NCBI GenBank assembly: GCA_015069365.1
Contig: SVIT01000004.1
Location: 1-56,897 of the forward strand
Length of the DNA stretch: 56,897 nt
Reading direction: 5' to 3'
Origin: Clostridiales bacterium
GTDB taxonomy: Bacteria; Bacillota; Clostridia; Christensenellales; Borkfalkiaceae
Below the pieces are notes generated by a model. It saw only the letters and a program-made list of their open reading frames with translations, made no database searches and was not told the DNA's origin. The position numbers and the translations under genes are program-made. Positions 13,194-20,924 of the stretch are shown piece after piece (the first letter of the stretch is position 1; each line of letters begins with the position of its first letter).

Positions 13194-15865
13194 TACGCTT
13201 TGATTTCCTCCGTAACGTAACATTCGATAATATCGCCGACGCGGATCTCGTTAAACCCTTCGATCGCGCAGCCGCATTCATAGCCGTAGTTGACCTCTTT
13301 TACGTCGTCCTTAAAGCGTTTCAACTGCTTCACGCCGCCTTCGCAGATCATGATATCTTCGCGATAGATACGAAGCTTACCGCCGCGAACGATCTTACCG
13401 TCCGTAACGTAGCAACCTGCAATCGTGCCAACGCCCGTGATATTGAACGTCTGACGGACTTCGCATTTACCCGTAAGCACTTCTTTAAGCTTGGGTGCAA
13501 GCATACCTTTGAGCGCCGCTTCCATATCGTCGAGAAGCTCGTAGATAATACGGTAGCTTCTAACGTCGACCTTAGACTGTTCAGCAATCTTCTTCGCCTT
13601 GGTGTCAGGACGAACGTTGAACCCAATGATGATCGCGTTTGCACTGTCAGCAAGCATAACGTCCCCTTCGTTGATCGCACCCGCCGCCGAATGGATAACC
13701 TTCACGCGGACTTCTTCGTTGGAAAGCTTTTCCAAGGAATGTTTTACAGCTTCAACGCTACCCTGTACGTCACCTTTGACGATAAGGTTAAGGTTCTTGA
13801 TCTTGCCTTCTTCCACCTGAGCGAATACGTCGTCAAGCGTAACACGGCTCTGTTCTTTGATCATGCTTTCGCGTTCTCTGTTCTTTCTTTCTTCCTGTAC
13901 CTGCTTCATCAGCGACTGGTCAACAGCCATAATGCTGTCGCCTGCGTTGGGTACGTCTTCCAGACCGAGAATGGATACCGCCATGGAAGGACCTGCACTC
14001 TTGACAGCTCTGCCCTTGTCGTCGAACATAGCACGCACACGCCCCATGGTCGTACCGGAAAGGATATTGTCACCAGTTTTCAAAGTACCCGTTTGAACGA
14101 TGATACTTGCAACGGGGCCCTTGCCCTTATCGAGTTTCGCCTCGATAATCGTACCTTTTGCCTGACGGTCGGGGTTAGCTTTGAGTTCTTGCATTTCCGC
14201 AACGAGGTTGACGGAATCAAGCAAATCGTCGATACCCATACCCGTCTTTGCGGACACGGGAACAACCATCGTATCGCCGCCCCATTCTTCGGGAACAAGG
14301 TCGTGTTCCAACAATTCCTGCTTCACGCGATCGGGATTGATCTCGTGTTTATCCATTTTATTCATTGCCACGATAATGGGCACGTCAGCCGCCTTTGCGT
14401 GGTTGATTGCTTCTACCGTCTGAGGCATGATACCGTCGTCTGCCGCTACTACGAGAATAACGACGTCCGTTACTTGCGCGCCGCGCGCTCTCATTGCGGT
14501 GAACGCCGCGTGACCAGGCGTATCGATAAAGGTGATCTGTTTGCCTTTCGCCGTTACGGTATAAGCACCGATACTCTGGGTAATACCGCCCGCTTCCCCA
14601 GAAGTTACGGAGGTAGCGCGGATTCTGTCGAGCAAGGAAGTCTTACCATGGTCTACGTGCCCCATAACCGTTACGACGGGCGCACGGGTAATGAGCTTGC
14701 TTTCGTCCTCAACAGAAGCCGTATCCATCAGAACTTCTTCTGCGGTCTTTTCAGGCTTATATTCCAGATCGATACCCATATCCGCCGCCATCAAAGCCGC
14801 GTTATCGTAATCGATCGAATCATTGATCCCTTTCATGATACCTTCTTTGAAAAGGCGTTTGGTGATCTCTACCGCGGAAACGCCGAGCTTTTCAGAAAGC
14901 ACTTTCAAAGGAATATCCTGCGTCGTAACCACTGCGTGTTCGATCTTGATCGTAGGGATTTCCTGACGTTTCTGCTTTTTAGGCGAACGTACCTTTCTGT
15001 AGCCCGACTTATCCTCGTCAAAATCCTCCACCGTCATACCTTGCTGTTTAATCAAGGAACGCTTCGACATAGGTTTCTTTTCGGTATACGTCTTTTCAAA
15101 CGTCTTTTTCTTTGCAGGCGCAGAGAAGGATTTGTTATCTCTGCTCGGTGCACTGATGGGAGCCGCGATCGGAGCAGGCGCCGCAGGTCTCGCGGGTCTT
15201 GCCCCTGTTGCTGGACGCATCGGTCTATCGCCAGCAGGTCTTGCAGGTCTTTCGCCTGCGGGACGGGGACGGTACGAGGGAGCGCTCGACGTCTCCGTAC
15301 CAGGCTTCGCCACGTATACCCCTTGTTCTTGACCGTTGCGGAAATATCTAGGTGCACGAGGAGCCGCGGGCGCGGGCTTGCTCTCCGTTTTGGGAACAAA
15401 CGTGCGCGCTTCGGGTTTCTTCTCCTCTACCGTGTCTTGTACGGCAACGGGAGTTTCTTTCACTTCCGCTTTCGCTTCTTCCGTCTTCGGTGCTTTTTCT
15501 ACCGTTTCCGCCTTCTCCTCCGCTTTCGGTTCCTCAACGAGAGCAGGCTCTTCTACGGGTTCTTTCTTTTTCTTAGCGGCTTTCTCTTTAGCCTTCTCTT
15601 CCGCCGCTTTTGCCGCTTCTTCTTTCGCTTTTTCCTCAGCGGCAATACGCGCAGCCTCTTCCGCCGCAGCACGCGCCTCTGCTTCAGCGCGCGCCGCCGC
15701 TTCCGCGACTTCGCGTTCCTGTTTTTCCGCCTCTAATGCGGATAATTTCTTCAAGATGTCCGACAGGCTCTTTTCCGTGGATGAAAGGCGTTTTTGTAAA
15801 CCGCCCAACTGCTTGTCGTCTAAAAGTGATGCAATTTTCTCCACGTTTTCATACTTTTTTGCCAT
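13193..15865 (-). CDS. infB: translation initiation factor IF-2
   Basis: VTVMGHVDHGKTSLLDRIR, DTPGHAAFTAMRARG, NKMDK; Ala/Glu/Lys-rich N-terminus. Confidence 0.98.
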   Translation of the reverse strand: MAKKYENVEKIASLLDDKQLGGLQKRLSSTEKSLSDILKKLSALEAEKQEREVAEAAARAEAEARAAAEEAARIAAEEKAKEEAAKAAEEKAKEKAAKKKKEPVEEPALVEEPKAEEKAETVEKAPKTEEAKAEVKETPVAVQDTVEEKKPEARTFVPKTESKPAPAAPRAPRYFRNGQEQGVYVAKPGTETSSAPSYRPRPAGERPARPAGDRPMRPATGARPARPAAPAPIAAPISAPSRDNKSFSAPAKKKTFEKTYTEKKPMSKRSLIKQQGMTVEDFDEDKSGYRKVRSPKKQKRQEIPTIKIEHAVVTTQDIPLKVLSEKLGVSAVEITKRLFKEGIMKGINDSIDYDNAALMAADMGIDLEYKPEKTAEEVLMDTASVEDESKLITRAPVVTVMGHVDHGKTSLLDRIRATSVTSGEAGGITQSIGAYTVTAKGKQITFIDTPGHAAFTAMRARGAQVTDVVILVVAADDGIMPQTVEAINHAKAADVPIIVAMNKMDKHEINPDRVKQELLEHDLVPEEWGGDTMVVPVSAKTGMGIDDLLDSVNLVAEMQELKANPDRQAKGTIIEAKLDKGKGPVASIIVQTGTLKTGDNILSGTTMGRVRAMFDDKGRAVKSAGPSMAVSILGLEDVPNAGDSIMAVDQSLMKQVQEERKNRERESMIKEQSRVTLDDVFAQVEEGKIKNLNLIVKGDVQGSVEAVKHSLEKLSNEEVRVKVIHSAAGAINEGDVMLADSANAIIIGFNVRPDTKAKKIAEQSKVDVRSYRIIYELLDDMEAALKGMLAPKLKEVLTGKCEVRQTFNITGVGTIAGCYVTDGKIVRGGKLRIYREDIMICEGGVKQLKRFKDDVKEVNYGYECGCAIEGFNEIRVGDIIECYVTEEIKA

Positions 15866-16501: not shown

Positions 16502-17599
16502 TTATTCTTCCGCGCCTTCTTCGCTCTCTTCGTTTTCGATCTGAGCAAGGATCTCTGCCGCTTCGGGAGAGGATGCGCTCTTAACGTCAATCTTCCAGCC
16601 GGTCAATCTTGCAGCCAAACGAGCGTTTTGACCATCTCTGCCGATTGCCAAGGAAAGTTTGTCGTCGGGAACGATCGCCATTGCGCTCTTTTCCCCTTTT
16701 GCCGTTACTGACAAAACAGTTGCAGGCGACAACGCCTTATAGATGAACGCCAAAGGATCTTCGTTCCAAAGAATGATGTCGATCTTTTCACCGCCGAGTT
16801 CTTCTACGACGGCGTTGACTCTCGCACCGCGGTTACCTACGCATGCGCCGACAGCGTCCACACGTGCGTCGTTGGAAAGAATCGCCATCTTGGTACGGTG
16901 ACCGGGTTCACGCGCGATTTCTTTAATCTCTACGATGCCCTGCGCAATTTCGGGGACTTGGGATTCGAACAATTTCTTCACCAAGCCCTGCGCGGTACGG
17001 GAAACCACGATCTGCGAATTTTTACCGTTATTCTTAACACGCTTTACAAACACTTTCAATCTGTCGCCAACTGCATATCTTTCCGTTAAAACGCGGTCCT
17101 GAGGGGGCATAACACCCTCAATTTTCTTATCGCCGAGTTCTACGTAAACGTTGCGTTCGTCGATCTTGCGGATAACACCGTCCATCAACTCTCCTTCCTT
17201 ATCCGAGAATTCGGAGAAGGTGTTATCGCGTTCCGCTTCGTGCAATTTCTGCAAAATAACCTGTTTCGCAGTCTGCGCGGCAATGCGCCCGAAATCCTTG
17301 GGGATAAACGTCTTCACGATCGTATCGCCCACTTTGTAATCGGGGTTCAGTTCCTGCGCGTCTTCCAAAGAAATTTCCTTGTCTTTGTCCTCTACTTCTT
17401 CTACGACATAGCGGGTTGCGCGGAATTCAATTCTGCCGTTCTCAGCGTCCAAGGACACGGAAATCTCCGCACCGCCCTCGAACTGCTTTTTATACGCGGA
17501 CGCAAGCGCGTTTTCAAGCGTTGCGATAAAAGCCTCTTCGCTGATCCCTTTCTCTCTTACCAAATCGGTAAGCGCCGCAAAAAACTCCTTGTTTTCCAT
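16502..17599 (-). CDS. nusA: transcription termination/antitermination factor NusA
   Basis: S1/KH layout; GACVGNRGARVNAVVEELGGEKIDIILW, LAIGRDGQNARLAARLTGWKIDV. Confidence 0.97.
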   Translation of the reverse strand: MENKEFFAALTDLVREKGISEEAFIATLENALASAYKKQFEGGAEISVSLDAENGRIEFRATRYVVEEVEDKDKEISLEDAQELNPDYKVGDTIVKTFIPKDFGRIAAQTAKQVILQKLHEAERDNTFSEFSDKEGELMDGVIRKIDERNVYVELGDKKIEGVMPPQDRVLTERYAVGDRLKVFVKRVKNNGKNSQIVVSRTAQGLVKKLFESQVPEIAQGIVEIKEIAREPGHRTKMAILSNDARVDAVGACVGNRGARVNAVVEELGGEKIDIILWNEDPLAFIYKALSPATVLSVTAKGEKSAMAIVPDDKLSLAIGRDGQNARLAARLTGWKIDVKSASSPEAAEILAQIENEESEEGAEE

Positions 17600-17655: not shown

Positions 17656-18126
17656 TTAAAATAAACCGTCAAAATCAATCGCTCTGCAAATCTTCGCAAT
17701 CTTCGATTTTTCCAGTTTCCATTCTTCGCCGTTGTCCTCAAGGAACACACAGTTCTCATCGTGCCCTTTCAAAACCATTTCAAACAGCTTTTTCCCTTTC
17801 ATCGGCGCGAACAGCTTCACTTCCACTTTCTTGCCGATATTCTTTTGAAAATCCCGATCCGTCTTCAAAGGTCTGTCAAGACCAGGGCTGGAGACGTTGA
17901 GGGTATAGGGCGTACCGAACGTGGGATCTGCCTCGTCCAAAACGGGGTCAATCGCACGGTGAAATTTTTCACACGTATTCAAATCCACGCCGTTTTCCGT
18001 GTCTATATACACAGTCAAGGCAGGTTCTCTTCCCTGTTTGAATTCCACCTCTACAATCTCAATCCCCATTTCATCGGCGATCGGTTGCAACACCTCTTGA
18101 ATTTCCGCAATACTCTTTACTTTCAT
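17656..18126 (-). CDS. rimP: ribosome maturation factor RimP
   Basis: GIEIVEVEFKQGREPALTVYID, YTLNVSSPGLDRPLKTDRDF. Confidence 0.95.
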   Translation of the reverse strand: MKVKSIAEIQEVLQPIADEMGIEIVEVEFKQGREPALTVYIDTENGVDLNTCEKFHRAIDPVLDEADPTFGTPYTLNVSSPGLDRPLKTDRDFQKNIGKKVEVKLFAPMKGKKLFEMVLKGHDENCVFLEDNGEEWKLEKSKIAKICRAIDFDGLF

Positions 18127-18298: not shown

Positions 18299-19876
18299 TC
18301 AATCTAGACAACCCTTCGCCTTTACCAGCTCGATGAACACCTTCGCCGTAACGCACGCGTCGTCGAACGCACGATGGTGATTAAAGGTAAAACCGTAATA
18401 ATCCGCGACCGTGTTGAGCTTGTAATTCGCCAGTTTCCCACGCAGAACCTGCTGTGCCAAAGTCAACGTATCGTACTGTTTTTTATCGAACATGTACCCA
18501 TTCTGTTCCCCATAATAATGCACGAAACGATAGTCGAACGTAACGTTATGTCCTACCAAAATCGCACCGTCTGTGAATTTGTAAAAATCGGCAAGCACTT
18601 TATCCACCTCAGGTGCGCCGACAAGGTCGGAATCGTTTATCCCCGTCAGGTTGATAATCTCTTGCGACAATCGTTCTTTGCAAGCGATAAATGAGGAAAA
18701 TTTTTCCACCATTTCCCCACCGACGATTTTCACCGCACCGATTTCGATAATTTTATCCATCTTGCCCATCGCAGGATTGTTATTCAGTCCCGTCGTTTCC
18801 AAATCGAACACGACGAATACGTTTTCTTTCAGCTGCGCGGGCTTTGTCAAATCATCGAACAGCCCCGCCTGCGTGCAATCGGAATAAGGCTGAGGGAAGA
18901 CGGCATGATACGCCTTGGGTACGGGCTTGCCCTTACGCGCAATCGGCTCAAACCCATCAGGGGGCGCGCCGTAATTAATCTTCGCCGCTTTGAAAGATGC
19001 CGAACCTCTAAATTCCTCGTTGGAACCGCTGATAACAATTTTATCCCCAATCTTGATATTACGCACCTTTTCCACCGTCGCTTTTTTAGGAAAATAGGTG
19101 GTACGCAAATTCGCCGTTCCATCCGTCAACGAAACGGAAAAACGAGTTTTCTCTACGTCCTCGCCCGTCTTTTCATTATGTTTTACGTAGGATATTTCTT
19201 CAATATAGGTGACCGTACCGCAGACGGCGTAATTCCCCTCCACCTGCTGACAGTCCGCCATGTAGACCGCCGTTTTTAACGGCTCGTCCACACCGTCGAT
19301 TTTCTCATAGTCCATAATCGGGAAACGCCGAATCTCCACAGGGATAATCTCTTCCTCTTCCACATCCGAAAGCTCTTCCAAAATCCCCTCGTCGGGCGCC
19401 GCCTTTTCCACGATACGAACGTTGCCGTAAAACGTGCCGCAAAAGACGCTCGATAAATACCTGCTTACCTCGTCTAGGATATTTCCCGAAGAAAATAACG
19501 ACTGTTCGCCAGAGGCAATATCCACGTAAAAATGCGCGCCGCTGCCCAGCATTTCCACCTCGATATTCTCCTCTTCCAAGAATGCCGACGCTGCAGGAAA
19601 CGTCTTTTGAATATATTGATAAATACGCTGTTTCAGCCCCTCCGCTTCGGGTACGCGCTTCACGATTTTAACGCGCGCGGAAAAGCCGTCGGGCAAATAC
19701 CCCTCGGAAATATGCCTCGCCTCCGCCTCTTCGCTAAGAGAATAGGTCTTGTCCGTCACCAAAAGAAATTCTGCGTAACGTTCTTTTTTTGACACGGTAA
19801 TACCGCAAAGGATCGCATGTTCCAATCCGTTCAGCGCACGTATCTCCGCCAAATACTCGTTAACTTTACTCGCCAT
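18299..19876 (-). CDS. PolC-like N-terminal/OB-fold plus DEDD 3'-5' exonuclease, no PHP or polymerase domain
   Basis: OB region AVCGTVTYIEEISYVKHNEKTGEDVEKTRFSVSLTDGTANLRTTYF; exonuclease VFVVFDLETTGLNN, GHNVTFDYRF, HHRAFDDACVTAKVF; sits between ispG and rimP, the common polC position. Confidence 0.8.
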   Translation of the reverse strand: MASKVNEYLAEIRALNGLEHAILCGITVSKKERYAEFLLVTDKTYSLSEEAEARHISEGYLPDGFSARVKIVKRVPEAEGLKQRIYQYIQKTFPAASAFLEEENIEVEMLGSGAHFYVDIASGEQSLFSSGNILDEVSRYLSSVFCGTFYGNVRIVEKAAPDEGILEELSDVEEEEIIPVEIRRFPIMDYEKIDGVDEPLKTAVYMADCQQVEGNYAVCGTVTYIEEISYVKHNEKTGEDVEKTRFSVSLTDGTANLRTTYFPKKATVEKVRNIKIGDKIVISGSNEEFRGSASFKAAKINYGAPPDGFEPIARKGKPVPKAYHAVFPQPYSDCTQAGLFDDLTKPAQLKENVFVVFDLETTGLNNNPAMGKMDKIIEIGAVKIVGGEMVEKFSSFIACKERLSQEIINLTGINDSDLVGAPEVDKVLADFYKFTDGAILVGHNVTFDYRFVHYYGEQNGYMFDKKQYDTLTLAQQVLRGKLANYKLNTVADYYGFTFNHHRAFDDACVTAKVFIELVKAKGCLD

Positions 19877-20924
19877 CTAACAATAACCTGATTTCCTTGA
19901 AAAATTCTTCTTCTGCACAATCGGTAGACACCTTTTTGAACGGCTCTCCCTTTTTAAAAATAAGACAGCCACCCTTACCGCCTGCAATCCCAAGATCGGC
20001 ATCCTTTGCTTCCCCAGGACCGTTTACCACGCAGCCCATCACCGCGACCTTTGCCTTTTTCTTATAGGGACGGACAAACGCCGTTACCTTTTCCGCAAGC
20101 GCCATACTCTCCCATTCGCACCGACCGCAAGTGGGACACGCCACGACCTCGACAAAATTTTCTTCCAACCCGCATGCGCGCAAAATCTGTTGCGCCGCAT
20201 ACACCTCTTTTATGGGATCGTCCGTCAAAGAGACCCGAATGGTATCCCCGATCCCCTGGAGCAGCAAACTGCCGATACCGACCGCACTTTTCACAATCCC
20301 TGCCTCTGTCGTTCCCGCCTCGGTCACCCCCAAATGCAAGGGGTATTGTGTACGACTTGCCAGTAGCATGTACGCGTTCACTGTTAATTTAACGTCTGAA
20401 GCCTTGACCGAAATAACGATATCATCGACCCCGAAACGTTCTAAAATATTGACGTTGTACAACGCGCTTTCCACCAACGCTTCCGCGCTTCTTCCATAAC
20501 GTTGTAAAAAGGTTTTCTCGATACTTCCCGTATTCGCACCGACTCGAACGGGAATCTTATGCGCTTTGATGCAGTCGGCGACGTATTTTATCTCATTCTC
20601 ACCGCCAATGTTTCCTGGATTGATACGCACCTTGTCTGCCCCGTTTTCAATCGCCATAACGGCAAGCTTCGGAGAAAAATGAATATCCGCAACCAGAGGA
20701 ATCTCCGTCTTTTCTTTCACCGCCTTAAAGGCGATTGCGTCCGTTTCGTCCAAAACCGCAAGCCGAACGATCTCGCACCCCGCTTTCTTCAGCCCGTTGA
20801 TCTGCGCGACCGTCTTTTCTACGTCCGAAGTTTTGGTCGTTGTCATCGACTGTATCTTGACCTTTGTTCCGCCGCCAAGCTGCAGCCCGCCGACAGATAA
20901 AAGTTTCGTCTTTTTCACGTCCAT
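19866..20924 (-). CDS. ispG: 4-hydroxy-3-methylbut-2-enyl diphosphate synthase
   Basis: KIQSMTTTKTSDVEKTVAQI, VRINPGNIG, CPTCGRCEWE, AVMGCVVNGPGEAKDADLGIAGG. Confidence 0.97.
   Translation of the reverse strand: MDVKKTKLLSVGGLQLGGGTKVKIQSMTTTKTSDVEKTVAQINGLKKAGCEIVRLAVLDETDAIAFKAVKEKTEIPLVADIHFSPKLAVMAIENGADKVRINPGNIGGENEIKYVADCIKAHKIPVRVGANTGSIEKTFLQRYGRSAEALVESALYNVNILERFGVDDIVISVKASDVKLTVNAYMLLASRTQYPLHLGVTEAGTTEAGIVKSAVGIGSLLLQGIGDTIRVSLTDDPIKEVYAAQQILRACGLEENFVEVVACPTCGRCEWESMALAEKVTAFVRPYKKKAKVAVMGCVVNGPGEAKDADLGIAGGKGGCLIFKKGEPFKKVSTDCAEEEFFKEIRLLLDGE

Follow-up and report, generated by a model that had tools for sequence, protein, structure and literature searches.

The slot between ispG and rimP-nusA, which is occupied by full-length PolC in sister families of the same order, raises the question of what is encoded, and for which function it is kept, at the corresponding locus of the Clostridiales contig SVIT01000004.1. 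The whole stretch of 56,897 nucleotides was analyzed and is termed the window. Here, ispG and rimP flank an open reading frame of 525 aa on the minus strand, with the ATG at 19876 and the end of the stop codon at 18299. The features of the locus, with the evidence for each in parentheses, are:

19866..20924, minus strand: ispG, the upstream neighbor (same order in relatives)
18299..19876, minus strand: polymerase-less PolC of 525 aa, composed of N-terminal domain (NTD), OB fold, linker, and DEDDh exonuclease (ORF, family orthologues, AlphaFold2)
19397..19876, minus strand: PolC-type NTD with two subdomains, aa 1–160 (hhalign, hmmsearch)
18959..19321, minus strand: OB-fold domain, aa 186–306 (PDB profile match, collinear with the PolC OB fold)
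18827..18958, minus strand: linker in place of PHP-N, aa 307–350 (mostly coil in the model, PHP-N skipped in alignments)
18857..18871, minus strand: QAGLF, a beta-clamp-binding-like motif of the type QxxLF, aa 336–340 (motif column conservation, shuffle test)
18314..18826, minus strand: DEDDh 3'–5' exonuclease domain, aa 351–521 (RNase_T, Foldseek, catalytic residues)
17656..18126, minus strand: rimP, the downstream neighbor (same order in relatives)
16502..17599, minus strand: nusA, downstream of rimP (same order in relatives)

The sequence-only reading had described an OB fold and an exonuclease lacking PHP domain and polymerase, and this description was borne out. Pfam detected RNase_T at aa 355–514 (E 3.6e-33) and otherwise only weak OB matches. 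The NCBIfam PolC model covered the exonuclease alone and scored 153 bits, far below its cut-off of 873, so that automatic annotation would probably label the protein a generic exonuclease. Profile alignment showed residues 3–306 to be collinear with the NTD and OB fold of Clostridia PolC (hhalign, probability 99.6, E 1e-24), and NTD, OB fold, and exonuclease all aligned with a PolC of 1397 aa from the order, PHP-N being skipped (E 4e-49); on the strength of these two alignments, a non-PolC protein at this locus was rejected. A profile built from the short form matched the N-termini of full PolCs at 1.2e-16 and 1.7e-12 (hmmsearch), and the top match of the OB domain in a PDB-wide profile search was Geobacillus PolC (E 3e-6). 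The AlphaFold2 model had a mean pLDDT of 91.1, with a mostly coiled linker at approximately aa 305–346. Its top PDB match in Foldseek was PolC of Enterococcus faecium (9qpc, E 1.6e-17), followed by DnaQ folds, while a viral fold library returned generic DEDDh matches only. Close homology of the DnaQ type was absent: the DnaQ equivalog models remained far below their cut-offs, and the best solved-structure matches were PolC exonucleases. Judged by ORF, Pfam, and alignments, the PHP domain is absent, the linker standing at the PHP-N position and nothing following the exonuclease; Pfam and NCBIfam found no Pol III alpha polymerase core in the 525-aa protein either. Since only 172 bp separate its stop codon from rimP, PHP and polymerase cannot fit there. 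Among the modules that define a PolC, the protein thus has the NTD, the OB fold, and the DEDDh exonuclease and lacks PHP and polymerase core.

The exonuclease is complete, as had been proposed. All three motifs were located (DLETTG at aa 358, GHNVTFDYR at aa 442, HHRAFDDA at aa 500), and all five DEDDh residues of DnaQ/epsilon-type exonucleases are present. These residues (D358, E360, D448, H501, and D506) were invariant in the first 75 proteins aligned, one row of which ends before H501. The gene start overlaps the end of ispG by 11 nt. This overlap makes the suggested translational coupling plausible but does not distinguish the short form, since full-length polC of some sister families shows a like overlap with ispG. 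In some genera (L077, L026, L027, L030, and others), the open frame reaches 50–200 codons beyond the conserved start and into ispG; translation probably begins at the internal start codons that align with the ATG in the window.

A pseudogene or an assembly truncation of polC might be suspected, as the window's genome is a MAG of 74% completeness. However, intact ORFs of near-constant length occur in about 15 families, many of them in genomes that are 95–100% complete, rimP is in place downstream, and the catalytic residues show the invariance described above. Conservation across families refutes this explanation, to which we attach practically no probability. Within the family, 143 of 151 genomes and all 18 genera carry the short form, mostly with 505–535 aa, which is far beyond chance and excludes a recent deletion in one species. 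Orthologues of approximately 500–550 aa were found across the order in about 15 families, nearly always in the ispG-X-rimP-nusA slot; among 160 genomes of the order, these families had the short form, full PolC occurred in about 12 of the other families sampled, and no mixed family was seen. Two genomes initially scored as having none contain diverged short forms adjoining ispG. Relatives are listed among uncultured gut Clostridia from ruminants and deer. Outside the order, no short form was found at E ≤ 1e-85 among the 186–196 Clostridia genomes sampled.

A second, full PolC elsewhere in the genome was also rejected. It was found neither in the window's genome nor in any of 20 genomes with the short form and a completeness of at least 94%, whereas three of three controls from a full-PolC family were positive. 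The idea that the gene was kept as a module on its own and is not decaying is therefore right, and the short form is fixed in its clade: no relative within the family has a long PolC, long PolCs are confined to other families of the order, and in a tree of 40 DnaE proteins one branch with 100/100 support separates short from full lineages, corresponding to one change. From these sequence comparisons, the polymerase half was apparently lost once, in the common ancestor of the approximately 15 families. With full PolC present in 83 of 89 genomes of the class and thus nearly universal, a single ancestral loss is the simplest reading. In family f26 (L173, L174, and L175), with genomes of 0.8–0.9 Mb that are 99–100% complete, the short PolC is kept, although ispG was not found nearby; its retention suggests that the gene matters under genome reduction.

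The loss of the polymerase core directs attention to DnaE. Every genome with a match in the DnaE search (33 in number) has a single DnaE-type polymerase; two matches in three of the 33 reflect a split hit or a split gene. The window's genome contains the clamp gene dnaN and one DnaE, which is cut by a contig end and is its only DNA_pol3_alpha match. Among 30 DnaE sequences, 20 of them from short-form lineages, none has lost a polymerase aspartate or any of the nine PHP metal ligands, and the inserts specific to short-lineage DnaEs are only small, variable ones. Retention of the exonuclease as a rescue for a dead DnaE PHP proofreader was rejected as a general cause, the PHP site being intact in 20 of 20. 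Only two other RNase_T proteins occur in the window's genome, a weakly matching 357-aa protein and a UvrD fusion. The latter is a UvrD-type helicase whose C-terminal half has a DEDDh exonuclease inserted (RNase_T at aa 501–661 within UvrD_C; G000:C34, about 13442–13951; L111:895–3483, minus strand).

On balance, we favor, with some confidence, a descendant of the polC locus which lost PHP and polymerase once and acts as a clamp-tethered trans-proofreader of DnaE1 and as an accessory of the replisome. The gene would be a polC descendant at its ancestral locus, reduced to NTD, OB fold, linker, and exonuclease, and DnaE1 would be the sole Pol III alpha subunit left in short-form lineages. The linker QxxLF would dock the protein on the sliding clamp, the NTD might contact the replisome via DnaE and/or the clamp loader, the OB fold may bind single-stranded DNA or the template, and the DEDDh domain would act in trans to strip mismatched 3' ends left by DnaE1, making the protein an epsilon-like proofreader that arose independently. 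There is a precedent in Bacillus subtilis, where the exonuclease of PolC acts in trans to proofread errors made by DnaE, within a stable DnaE–PolC–template complex (PMC5627055). Since NTD, OB fold, and exonuclease are kept together with the clamp-like motif, such trans-proofreading would survive the loss of the polymerase. The trans-acting proofreader suggested earlier from the DNA appears to be the best-supported mechanism, helped by motif and precedent. Its main weakness is that DnaE1 may proofread itself, as its complete PHP metal site would allow, and that DEDDh activity may be redundant.

The putative clamp-docking site QAGLF lies in the linker immediately N-terminal of the exonuclease. 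Gln occupies the motif column in 104 of 112 catalytically intact proteins and in 12 of 13 inactive ones. A strict Qxx[LMF]F was present in the linker of 28 of 42 representatives sharing <55% identity and missing in the other 14, compared to 0.5 (maximum 3) in shuffled linkers; short linear motifs of this kind can mislead. Most of the full PolCs listed have a QxxLF-type motif near the C-terminus, never between OB fold and exonuclease, and one has a match inside an OB fold (L129, aa 255).

The DEDDh site is kept in 112 of 125 proteins (one of the 112 being incomplete at its end) and throughout the sample in 12 of 15 short-form families. The remaining 13 inactive proteins belong to three lineages, namely parts of f19 and f76 as well as f16. 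In a tree of NTD and OB fold only, in which two long branches meet in f16, well-supported branches make three changes necessary, and grouping all inactive forms into one clade was rejected (AU p 0.039). The inactive proteins still adjoin ispG and comprise 490–550 aa. Within one genus, their dN of 0.25–0.59 with saturated dS is consistent with purifying selection. For an inactive representative, the whole fold is predicted to be kept (pLDDT 86.3), with PolC as the top PDB match. Because three lineages keep protein, fold, and motif Gln after losing the catalytic residues, the short PolC is taken to have a non-catalytic role, too, and a docking or scaffold function independent of catalysis would have to be added to the proposal. 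That these lineages survive without catalysis counts against the trans-proofreader and leaves it incomplete as an explanation. Several genomes with dead exonucleases, for example L266 (G350) and L096 and L186 (G188), carry a separate DEDDh protein; compensation is possible, and similar solo proteins occur in some intact lineages and in other Clostridia.

The same observations speak for a mainly non-catalytic replisome scaffold with an optional exonuclease, in which NTD, OB fold, and clamp motif would link DnaE1 to the clamp and to the clamp loader or helicase: NTD-OB and gene slot persist in all three DEDDh-dead lineages, the motif Gln is retained, the inactive form folds confidently in the prediction and resembles PolC, and the substitution pattern is conservative. 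The N-terminal PolC subdomains are, in addition, relatives of tau domain V according to a 2026 survey (PMC12926913). The preserved active site in most proteins and families argues that catalysis matters in most lineages, and we regard this scaffold as the unlikelier account, though one to be taken seriously.

Stand-alone DEDDh exonucleases often have repair or processing roles. An enzyme of this kind, untied from the replicative polymerase and engaged, for example, in 3' trimming during mismatch repair or in Okazaki maturation, would also fit a DnaE1 with a PHP site of its own. The retained PolC NTD, OB fold, and clamp-like motif, however, point to the replisome, which makes a repair exonuclease distinctly improbable compared to the clamp-tethered proofreader.

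Two exonuclease trees, based on approximately 170 columns, disagree: one placed the short-form exonucleases outside those of PolC and the other nested them among these. In topology tests, a joint clade of short and full PolC exonucleases was compatible with the data (p 0.87 and 0.33), whereas a clade of the short forms with PolC exonucleases of the same order alone was rejected (p 0.03). The latter result points to a possible swap or rapid past evolution of the exonuclease half. Position and architecture make it likely that the exonuclease comes from the PolC of the order itself. Alternatively, another PolC-like exonuclease may have been re-fused after the old C-terminal clamp motif, which would also explain the new position of the motif. 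In family f11, the exonuclease of the 1410-aa PolC of G348 had no match to the short-form profile at 1e-20, and G359, G381, and G399 likewise lacked a match; the embedded exonuclease of G348 may be diverged or inactive.

Compared to PolC of the B. subtilis type, the protein has the same order of NTD, OB fold, and DEDDh domain, the same slot, and PolC as its best structural match; it lacks PHP, palm, thumb, fingers, and HhH, and its clamp-like motif precedes the exonuclease instead of lying near the C-terminus. Like DnaQ/epsilon of E. coli Pol III, it is a DEDDh protein of its own that accompanies a DnaE1 polymerase and probably contacts the clamp. In contrast to epsilon, it carries PolC NTD and OB fold in front, ends right after the exonuclease without an alpha-binding tail, and is of independent origin. 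In two surveys, Clostridia with DnaE1 only or with PolC and DnaE1, exonuclease-less PolCs, and solo nucleases replacing lost polymerase modules are described (PMC3919608, PMC12926913). The exonuclease-less PolC of some Clostridia (PMC3919608) likewise has exonuclease and PolC polymerase parted, but there the polymerase is what remained, and here it is gone and the exonuclease stays. The polymerase-less PolX-like PHP proteins (PMC12926913) were likewise retained without the polymerase region, but concern another polymerase family (X) and another nuclease (PHP). A PolC without polymerase was not found described in these surveys or in the open-access literature searched.

The division of replication between PolC and DnaE1 in Clostridia is described as unknown in PMC3919608. 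By losing the PolC polymerase but not the other parts, the order performed a natural experiment that shows the further contributions of PolC and makes trans-proofreading of DnaE directly testable. Short-form Clostridia belong to the Bacillota, usually counted as PolC carriers; this gut group is predicted to be naturally insensitive to inhibitors of PolC, for example ibezapolstat. Tentatively, and with rather more doubt than conviction, they may represent a third bacterial replisome layout, in which the front half of PolC is a separate, clamp-tethered subunit of a DnaE1 replisome whose own essential role would be architectural and whose nuclease would be dispensable, having been lost at least three times.
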